A program made the translations under genes and the position numbers. A stretch of 64,000 nt of DNA from Methylobacterium sp. E-065 (GTDB lineage Bacteria > Pseudomonadota > Alphaproteobacteria > Rhizobiales > Beijerinckiaceae), in contig NZ_JAKSYD010000074.1 of NCBI RefSeq assembly GCF_022829605.1, positions 62,001-126,000 on the forward strand, written 5' to 3'. Below are positions 11,198 to 13,270 of this stretch, in pieces. The notes beneath the pieces were generated by a model, which was given only the letters and a program-made list of their open reading frames with translations, was not told the DNA's origin and did not search any database. The first letter of the stretch is position 1. Each line of letters starts with the position of its first letter.

Positions 11198-11219
11198 TCG
11201 CCTCGTGGTTACGAGGCGA
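11198..11219 (-). promoter_or_regulatory. Hairpin sequestering the mgtE ribosome-binding site
   Basis: On the mgtE mRNA strand TCGCCTCGT (5' arm) pairs perfectly with ACGAGGCGA (3' arm) around an AACC loop: 9 bp with no mismatch. The 3' arm runs into the purine-rich GAGGCGAGG just before the ATG (11191-11193), so pairing would hide the only visible Shine-Dalgarno sequence, and the hairpin ends 4 nt before the start codon. Likely a translational control element; the trigger (Mg2+, temperature or a leader structure) is unknown. Confidence 0.6.
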
Positions 11220-11563
11220 CGCGGCGCCGGTCATCCTGGGTCAGGGCCGTGACCGGGCGGTGCGCCGGTCGCCCCGCGGCCAGGCCTCTCAGCGGCTCAG
11301 GCGGGATGACGGCACGGGGCCGGGCACGGCTGGCACGATCGGTCGGGCACGTCGCTTCGCGGGTCGCTAATGAAGGGGAGCGCGACGCCGCCGGAGCGAT
11401 GTCGCGCGGCTGCGTCGTGCGCCAGCGCACAAATTCCGTCAAGCCGTAACCGTTGCAGGGATGTCGGCTTTCCGCCTTGCGCACAAAGGGCGCCAGCCGG
11501 TGTCGCGCGGCGGCATCAGAGGGCCCCGCGGGTCCCTATGAGAAATATAAGTGTTGTGCTCAC

Positions 11564-11592
11564 TTGTATTGCGTCCAAGATATTGCCTATAT
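11564..11592 (+). promoter_or_regulatory. Putative sigma-70-type promoter of pqqA
   Basis: TTGTAT (11564-11569), a 17-bp spacer and CTATAT (11587-11592) make a plausible -35/-10 pair 29 bp upstream of the first pqqA start, in a locally AT-richer stretch. Assigned by eye only. Confidence 0.4.
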
Positions 11593-11621
11593 GGGTCTCA
11601 CCAACAACGAGGAGAAACGCC

Positions 11622-11711
11622 ATGGCTTGGTCTGCCCCGATCGTGTCCGAGATCTGCGTCGGCATGGAAGTCACGAGCTACGAGTCGGCCGAGATCGACA
11701 CTTTCAACTGA
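11622..11711 (+). CDS. pqqA: PQQ precursor peptide PqqA, copy 1
   Basis: 29-residue peptide, the substrate from which PQQ is built: the radical SAM enzyme PqqE cross-links the conserved Glu and Tyr side chains, which are then excised. It starts MAWSAPIVSEICVGMEV and keeps the Glu-x3-Tyr pair (Glu16, Tyr20, in EVTSY). GAGGAG lies 9 nt before the ATG. A second copy follows 81 bp downstream, differing by one residue. pqqB, C, D and E are not in the window, so this is an orphan precursor locus. Nearly identical to known Methylobacterium PqqA apart from residues 2-4. Confidence 0.93.
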   Translation: MAWSAPIVSEICVGMEVTSYESAEIDTFN

Positions 11712-11722
11712 GTCGATCCTGT

Positions 11723-11743
11723 CGGGAGCGGAATAAGCTCCCG
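11723..11743 (+). other. Hairpin between the two pqqA copies
   Basis: CGGGAGC (11723-11729) and GCTCCCG (11737-11743) form a perfect 7-bp stem with a 7-nt loop, 12 nt after the first pqqA stop and without a T-run. It could protect the 3' end of the short pqqA transcript or attenuate read-through; which one cannot be read from sequence. Confidence 0.5.
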
Positions 11744-11792
11744 CTATATTGGATGCTTCAGTCACTCACACGAAATTCCTTAGGAGGAACAC

Positions 11793-11882
11793 ATGGCCTG
11801 GACCGCTCCGATCGTTTCCGAGATCTGCGTTGGCATGGAAGTCACCAGCTACGAGTCCGCTGAGATCGACACCTTCAACTAA
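11793..11882 (+). CDS. pqqA: PQQ precursor peptide PqqA, copy 2
   Basis: Second 29-residue PqqA in tandem, starting MAWTAPIVSEICVGMEV; only residue 4 differs (Thr for Ser). Glu16 and Tyr20 are kept. The two genes differ at 11 of 90 nucleotides, nearly all at silent positions, so both copies look to be under selection. It has its own strong ribosome-binding site (AGGAGG, 6 nt before the ATG) and is followed by a terminator. Because PqqA is consumed one for one, two copies would raise precursor dosage. Confidence 0.93.
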   Translation: MAWTAPIVSEICVGMEVTSYESAEIDTFN

Positions 11883-11903
11883 GATATCGACCGAACAGTT
11901 TGG

Positions 11904-11936
11904 GCGCCGCTTCTCACGAAGCGGCGCTTTTCTTTT
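11904..11936 (+). terminator. Rho-independent terminator after pqqA copy 2
   Basis: Perfect 10-bp stem GCGCCGCTTC (11904-11913) with GAAGCGGCGC (11918-11927), a TCAC loop and a T-rich tail (TTTTCTTTT). It closes a two-gene transcript 22 bp after the second pqqA stop. Confidence 0.9.
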
Positions 11937-12022
11937 GTGCGCGCTCCAAGTGCTAGTCTCCGGCGGCGAAGATCTCGGGATCGACCCTGACGATCCCCGG
12001 CCGAGTCTTGGGACCCGCCGTC

Positions 12023-13270
12023 TCAGCCGACGAACAGCCCTGCGATCGCCGCGCTCGTGAAGTTCGACAGGGTTCCCGCCAGGATCGCCCGCAGCCCGTA
12101 GCGGGCCACCTCCGAGCGTCGCTCCGGCACCAGGCTCGCGAAGCTCGCGAGCTGGATCGCGATGGAGGCGAAGTTCGCAAAGCCGCACAGGGCGAAGCAA
12201 ACGATCGCCTGTGAGCGCGCGTCCAGCATCCCGGCTTTCAGGGTCGGTGACAGATTGGCGTAGGCCAGGAATTCGTTGAAGGCGAGTTTTTGGCCGATCG
12301 CGCCGCCGACCAGCGTCGCATTCTCCCACGGTACGCCTAGGAGCCACGCTAGGGGACTCAGCGCCCAGCCGAGCACGCTCTCGAACGAGGCGCCGGGATA
12401 GCCAACCCGACCGCCGAGGGTACTGAACAGCCCGTCCGCCAGCGCGATCAGCCCAACGAACGCGATCAGCATGGCGCCGACCGAGACGGCCACCACCAGC
12501 CCTTTCTGCGTTCCATCGGCCGCCGCCTCGATGATGTTGGCCGCCCGGGTCTCGCCGAACTCCACCCGGGTGGTGGCGATCCGCGTCGGCTCCGTGGAGG
12601 GCACCAGCATCTTGGCGTAGACCAGCCCGCCGGGGATCGCCATCACGGAAGCCGCGAGCAGATAGGTCATCGGGACGCCGAGCGCCGCATAGCCGGCCAG
12701 GATCGAGCCGGCGGTGGACGCGGCACCGCTCGACATCACGGCGAACAGCTCGGCCCCGGTCAGGGCGGCGAGGAACGGGCGCAAGGCCACCGCGATCTCA
12801 CTCTGGCCGATCGCGATGGTGATCACCGCAGCAAAGGACTCGATCGGCGACGTGCCGAGGATCCGCCGGAGGCCTGCACCCAGCCCACGGGCCAGGGCCT
12901 GCATCACGCCGAGATGGTAGAGCACCCCGATCAGGGCGGAGACGTAGAGGATTTGCGGCAGCACCCGCAGCGCCAGGATGAAACCCGAACCGCCGAACAG
13001 CTCGAACATCTTCGGCTCGACGAGGCCTCCGAACAGGAAGGCGGTGCCGCGGTCGCCGTAGGAGAGCACGCGCGCGACGATATCGGCCGCCGCATTGAGG
13101 GCCACCTGCCCCGCCGGCAGGAACAGGATCAGGGCGCCGAGGCCCACCTGCAGCGCCAGACCGGTGAGCACCACCCGCGGGCGGATTGCCCTCGGGTTCG
13201 TCGAGAACAGCACCGCGACGGCGATCAGCAGCAGGAGGCTGAGGCCGGCATGGATCAGGCGGTCGAGCAT
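12023..13270 (-). CDS. CNT-family nucleoside transporter (NupC-like)
   Basis: 415 residues with about ten hydrophobic helices. Concentrative nucleoside transporters import nucleosides with H+ or Na+. The family core is visible: the GQSE segment with substrate-binding Glu (AIGQSEIAVAL), then TGAELFAVMSSGAASTAGSILAGY, and later KLAFNEFLAYANL and SQAIVCFALCGFANFASIAIQ. Length and order match bacterial NupC (about 400). It lies alone, leftward, 52 bp from the end of the TetR gene; no nucleoside catabolic genes are adjacent. Confidence 0.9.
   Translation of the reverse strand: MLDRLIHAGLSLLLLIAVAVLFSTNPRAIRPRVVLTGLALQVGLGALILFLPAGQVALNAAADIVARVLSYGDRGTAFLFGGLVEPKMFELFGGSGFILALRVLPQILYVSALIGVLYHLGVMQALARGLGAGLRRILGTSPIESFAAVITIAIGQSEIAVALRPFLAALTGAELFAVMSSGAASTAGSILAGYAALGVPMTYLLAASVMAIPGGLVYAKMLVPSTEPTRIATTRVEFGETRAANIIEAAADGTQKGLVVAVSVGAMLIAFVGLIALADGLFSTLGGRVGYPGASFESVLGWALSPLAWLLGVPWENATLVGGAIGQKLAFNEFLAYANLSPTLKAGMLDARSQAIVCFALCGFANFASIAIQLASFASLVPERRSEVARYGLRAILAGTLSNFTSAAIAGLFVG

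Follow-up and report, generated by a model that had tools for sequence, protein, structure and literature searches.

PQQ is the cofactor of methanol dehydrogenases, and genes as small as pqqA, which encodes the precursor peptide PqqA, are easily missed in annotation. The closest described system is that of Methylorubrum extorquens AM1, which has two pqqA homologues with neighbouring locus tags (MEXAM1_RS21885 and RS21890) that have been offered as the reason why a pqqA mutant still makes PQQ (PMC6520949). The PQQ-positive mutant itself goes back to Toyama and Lidstrom 1998, as cited in PMC6520949 and PMC11317620. The latter paper calls pqqA2 and pqqA3 of AM1, presumably the same two genes, orphan copies and reports a fourfold change in them between Nd sources, with no rise in most PQQ genes; its results place the increase in NdCl3, whereas its discussion has increased expression beside Nd2O3. 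Both papers report that the AM1 copies are expressed and regulated (PMC6520949, PMC11317620), and in the accessible text regulation apart from the operon is reported for AM1 only (PMC11317620).

Several pqqA copies have also been described in other methylotrophs: five in strain FJNU-6 (PMC9851590), five in Methylovorus sp. MP688 (as cited in PMC9851590 and PMC11317620), and three in another strain, where they go down with Nd (PMC10848612). Strain DM4 is reported to have no start site directly before its operon pqqA (PMC9320726), the only listed pqqA of M. oryzae lies 930 kb from pqqBC/DE (PMC4161386), and pqqA has been reported missing from M. mesophilicum SR1.6/6 (PMC3707593).

The locus described here lies in a stretch of 64,000 nucleotides from Methylobacterium sp. 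E-065, referred to in the following as the window, and is made up of the following features:

11537–11592, plus strand: conserved promoter block, from the upstream alignment of 46 of 47 loci
11544–11570, plus strand: imperfect dyad, AATATAAGTG-N7-CACTTGTATT
11546–11578, plus strand: core element within the promoter block
11564–11592, plus strand: proposed promoter, TTGTAT (11564–11569), 17-base spacer and CTATAT (11587–11592), from sequence reading and alignment
11622–11711, plus strand: pqqA copy 1, 29 codons, Ser4, TIGR02107 score 39.9 bits (cut-off 20)
11723–11743, plus strand: inter-gene stem-loop, CGGGAGC-N7-GCTCCCG, 7 pairs and a loop of 7, with no T tract after it
11793–11882, plus strand: pqqA copy 2, 29 codons, Thr4, TIGR02107 score 41.2 bits (cut-off 20)
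11902–11937, plus strand: predicted intrinsic terminator, a 12-pair stem (11902–11929) and a T-rich tail

Both reading frames are intact, with 29 codons and a stop, and each is preceded by a ribosome site (AGGAG at 11610–11614 and AGGAGG at 11782–11787). Both copies qualify as PqqA by scoring higher than the curated NCBIfam TIGR02107 cut-off. Both translations contain the Glu-x-x-x-Tyr core at Glu16 and Tyr20, which we take to be the cross-linked residues of PqqA. The original prediction, made from the letters alone, of two 29-codon pqqA genes with their own ribosome sites was exact in its coordinates, as was its count of 11 differences in 90 bases with a single changed residue: eight of these fall in synonymous codons, two in the Ser4/Thr4 codon and one in the stop. 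Its suggestion that the Ser/Thr difference might have a functional effect fared less well. Thr occupies position 4 in 9 of the 99 array genes, and in both copies at two loci (L088 and L104), so the difference looks neutral.

No PqqB or PqqC/D match was found within 8 kb around the pair, in agreement with the predicted closed unit lacking pqqB–E. The divergent neighbour passes the mgtE model, and the convergent neighbour matches the nupC model with a score below its cut-off. A plasmid origin of the pair was considered and rejected: the three plasmid records matched were from Methylocystis (two) and Roseomonas (one) and none from Methylobacterium, in a collection that may omit records very near the E-065 genome.

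A search of the whole E-065 genome (7.0 Mb in 304 contigs) gave three pqqA matches, the pair and one on contig C131. The product of the latter begins MKWAAPIV, and the gene lies 33 bases before pqqB. A fused pqqC/D and then pqqE come next, and each of these genes scores higher than the cut-off of its model. Upstream of it, sensor kinase and response regulator genes were read by eye, at the place where M. extorquens DM4 and M. mesophilicum SR1.6/6 have mxbM or mxbDM (PMC9320726, PMC3707593). Three alcohol-dehydrogenase quinoproteins in the genome score above the TIGR03075 cut-off, and only a few N-terminal residues distinguish the orphan peptides from that of the operon. The original prediction had described a dosage locus feeding enzymes encoded elsewhere, and had named an operon carrying its own pqqA as one half of what would speak against it. 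That operon exists, so this half counts against the prediction: the pair is not the sole source of PqqA. Other parts of the picture were supported: the pair is under selection, separate from pqqB, pqqC/D and pqqE on C131, and could in principle supply the enzymes that these encode. The genome therefore holds a tandem pqqA array without pqqB–E and, apart from it, an operon with its own pqqA.

Selection was assessed on 52 neighbouring copy pairs from 47 loci, where the synonymous difference was 0.203 and the nonsynonymous 0.0127 per site (pN/pS 0.063). The search pattern constrains the tail of the upstream copy; the test was therefore run again on codons 4–19 (0.094) and on 29 pairs retrieved through the element, independently of the tandem pattern (0.117). 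These figures are rough, the genes being short and related, and purifying selection on the copies stands, somewhat weaker in the repeat tests, bearing out the claim that selection keeps both. Variable residues in the 99 pattern-found genes were confined to positions 2, 4, 7, 9, 11 and, once, 26; the element-found set adds tail variants such as DPFN and TFH. At 20 loci of the window's type, the mean synonymous difference between species was 0.191 for copy 1 and 0.276 for copy 2, and that between copy 1 and copy 2 of the same species was 0.271. In these 20 loci the duplication is therefore old, copy 1 being less diverged between species than from copy 2.

A stem-loop between the genes and a terminator after them had also been predicted, and both were found. 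The fold of the window stem is not exceptional (z −0.65), and fold energy proved weak as evidence for the stem in general (mean z −0.74, with 8 of 52 regions below −2). The position of the stem was more telling. A stem of at least 5 pairs, at least 4 of them G–C, starting 3–14 bases after the stop was present in 40 of 52 inter-gene regions, the window included, compared with 5.0 on average in shuffles (sd 2.1, maximum 11), and in 15 of 29 regions of a second set against 3.0 (sd 1.4, maximum 7), in shuffles that take no account of kinship among the loci. By this test it was absent from 12 and 14 regions, respectively. Among 18 chosen related loci, five of the eight predicted pairs had changed on both sides; pairs were broken or gapped in 0 to 6 of the 18 sequences, and the covariation term was small (−0.49). 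The stem was rejected as a terminator: in the window it is without a T tract, and 8 of 52 inter-gene regions passed a lenient test, compared with 46 of 47 post-array regions. It is probably a messenger-stability or processing element rather than an end of transcription. An Rfam scan of 11200–12100 matched no known RNA element, giving two matches far below gathering scores, one of them over the terminator. Terminator-like sites occurred 0.6 times on average in shuffles of the scan, and the window alone is weak proof; such a site follows the last copy read in 46 of 47 loci.

Upstream of the array, a block of about 55 bases is conserved in most loci while its flanks are not (46 of 47 loci used in the alignment), and three loci (L075, L084 and L091) retain only part of it. 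We searched for its core as TATAAGTGNNGNGYYCRCTTGWATTGYGYCCMA, 33 bases with at most 3 mismatches. Exactly one copy was found in each of 88 of the 111 genomes of the genus and none in the other 23, and the reversed pattern had no match in the 111. In an even sampling of the family, 36 of 45 genomes from the genus had the core, as against 0 of 352 from 42 other genera. The element was followed by pqqA in every case with enough downstream sequence. At 45 of 47 loci, the distance from the end of the element to the first pqqA was 41–46 bases, 124–127 bases (Methylorubrum type) or, once, 155 bases; the remaining two (L075 and L084) had no copy within 3 mismatches. At L084, L091 and L075 (genomes G026, G085 and G078), a partly diverged element and a long leader stand before the array.

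An E. coli-type promoter scan found no promoter at the locus, the scan model being of E. coli type; it is from conservation that we infer the promoter of the pair. The dyad within it is the only such site in its own genome at up to 3 mismatches, and a wider regulon was accordingly rejected. The sequence preceding the operon pqqA and the surroundings of the quinoprotein genes gave no match that surpassed those in shuffled sequence. The dyad also escaped an inverted-repeat scan, its exact runs falling short of the length of the scan seed. Its symmetry is lower in many species; therefore we claim a conserved promoter, as judged from the alignment, and put forward a regulator site as no more than a proposal.

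PqqA matches were present in all 111 genomes of the genus, with at least two in 108 and a single one in G025, G037 and G110. The tandem pattern matched 59 of the 111. A scan of 84,980 species gave 46 contig stretches, labelled Methylobacterium, Methylorubrum, Methylobacteriaceae or Beijerinckiaceae; since the pattern was built on the tail sequence of this genus, tandem pqqA of another make may occur elsewhere. The stretches had two copies in 39 cases and three in 6 (L070, L073, L074, L079, L095 and L106), and one ended after a single copy. Three-copy arrays were likewise seen in genomes G013, G033 and G035. No PqqB match was found in the 46 stretches, in five of which fewer than 250 bases follow the last copy. 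Further loci of tandem type, 62 in all, likewise had no PqqB or PqqC/D match, a reading that covers part of the 85 array genomes described below; as a positive control, PqqB and PqqC/D were found in L008 and L160. The array adjoins mgtE in 33 of the 46 stretches, and three of the 13 without it (L095, L106 and L109) have fewer than 550 bases before the array. The stretch from M. mesophilicum NBRC 15688 (L083) carries tandem pqqA.

Of the 88 genomes with the element, 57 matched the tandem pattern and the other 31 were read directly. Two or three pqqA genes followed the element in 26 of these, and one in G039 and in G019, the latter at a contig end; in G037, G047 and G110 the contig stops no more than about 200 bases beyond the element. 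Together with G026 and G078, where the tandem is present and the element absent, 85 of the 111 genomes carry tandem pqqA arrays, and the locus cannot be called unusual. The PqqA tails at L128–L157 end in DPFN or TFH instead of DTFN and are missed by the tandem pattern.

The 23 element-free genomes comprise G026, G078, G025 and 20 others (L162–L181), which have two close pqqA genes inside the operon with pqqB directly after them. In G025 (L161), the single pqqA precedes pqqB; no other genome of the 111 combines a single pqqA match with absence of the element and contigs showing no break. A strict pqqA–pqqB operon pattern, a miss of which does not mean absence, matched 43 of the 111 genomes, all of which also carry the element or a tandem array. 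Nearly the whole genus thus keeps extra pqqA, either as an array or within the operon, and supply is the favoured reason common to both.

At the Methylorubrum-type loci (L073, L079, L082, L090, L095, L097, L098, L106 and L111), about 80 extra bases lie between the element and the first pqqA, and no mgtE match was seen in the available sequence. At L098, the array is preceded by a serS-type gene and followed by a MarR-type regulator.

Taken as a whole, the pair is, with fair assurance, an orphan pqqA array, a dicistronic unit that would make extra PqqA and feed PQQ enzymes encoded at a distance. One promoter with a conserved, locus-specific element would drive both genes, each translated from its own ribosome site, the stem-loop after copy 1 probably protects or tunes the messenger, and the terminator would end the unit. 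The peptides would then be consumed as PqqE, PqqB and PqqC/D from the C131 operon make PQQ. The sequence suggests that the peptides are made and processed by these distant enzymes, that they increase the supply of PQQ, and that expression of the pair is governed by the element. In both layouts the genomes retain more than a single pqqA, nearly all having at least two matches; on the other side, the operon already has a pqqA, G025 shows a single match, before pqqB, and one copy follows the element in G019 and in G039. On balance a supply function is likely, and the pair is best read as a precursor-supply locus under separate regulation.

A related possibility, which overlaps this explanation and adds a regulator, is that the array does more than raise dosage: it would be the controlled source of PqqA, responding through the element to methanol, lanthanide or PQQ status, with a basal supply coming from the operon copy. 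The element is unique in the genome, conserved in the genus and without anything similar before the operon pqqA, and the fourfold response of AM1 pqqA2/pqqA3 to the Nd source, with most PQQ genes not rising, points the same way (PMC11317620). A conserved promoter, however, does not require a regulator of its own, many species have an imperfect dyad, and the results and discussion of the AM1 paper seem to differ on the direction of the change. We regard this version as tentative, with the odds against it. A little more doubtful still is its sharper form, in which a dedicated regulator would bind the 33-base element and have the orphan pqqA array as, in essence, its single target in each genome, PQQ supply thus being set via the precursor.

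The same Nd-source response could indicate that the orphan peptides have another role, such as lanthanide uptake (PMC11317620). This seems improbable, in that the orphan and operon peptides differ at only a few N-terminal residues, and the clade that keeps its second copy inside the operon fits PQQ supply. That the pair is a decaying or neutral duplicate without function, as the pqqA in the operon might invite one to think, is very hard to reconcile with the purifying selection, the conserved promoter, stem and terminator, and, at 20 loci, a duplication old enough for copy 1 to be closer between species than to copy 2.

If the 33-base element does bind a dedicated regulator, the array would be the regulated step of PQQ synthesis, with the precursor peptide adjusted instead of the enzymes, and would account for the long-standing PQQ-positive pqqA mutant of AM1. 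That mutant has a ready explanation if orphan copies provide the peptide, as already suggested (PMC6520949). The genus-wide array with its unique promoter element suggests that control over PQQ supply may lie at the level of the precursor.

We found no description of the element or of a genus-wide array in the literature covered, most subscription journals being outside that coverage. The new part is the conserved, locus-specific control region of the array; the array itself belongs to a genus-wide type of locus, noted before in AM1, and is an ordinary example of it. Both the window and AM1, the latter known from papers alone, have two extra pqqA genes apart from a pqqABC/DE operon. The same tandem and element occur in five named relatives of AM1, Methylorubrum thiocyanatum, aminovorans, salsuginis, rhodinum and suomiense. 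The Methylorubrum loci differ from that in the window in having no mgtE next to the array and a leader about 80 bases longer. FJNU-6 resembles the window in combining operon copies with separate ones, whose expression differs (PMC9851590). FJNU-6 and MP688 are other organisms with other copy numbers, and the accessible text of PMC9851590 describes no tandem with a shared conserved promoter. M. aquaticum 22A, with its pqqA1A2BCDE cluster, has a tandem pqqA pair like that in the window (PMC4392154, PMC5784242), but there the pair is joined to pqqB–E, the layout found in the 20 element-free genomes of the genus.
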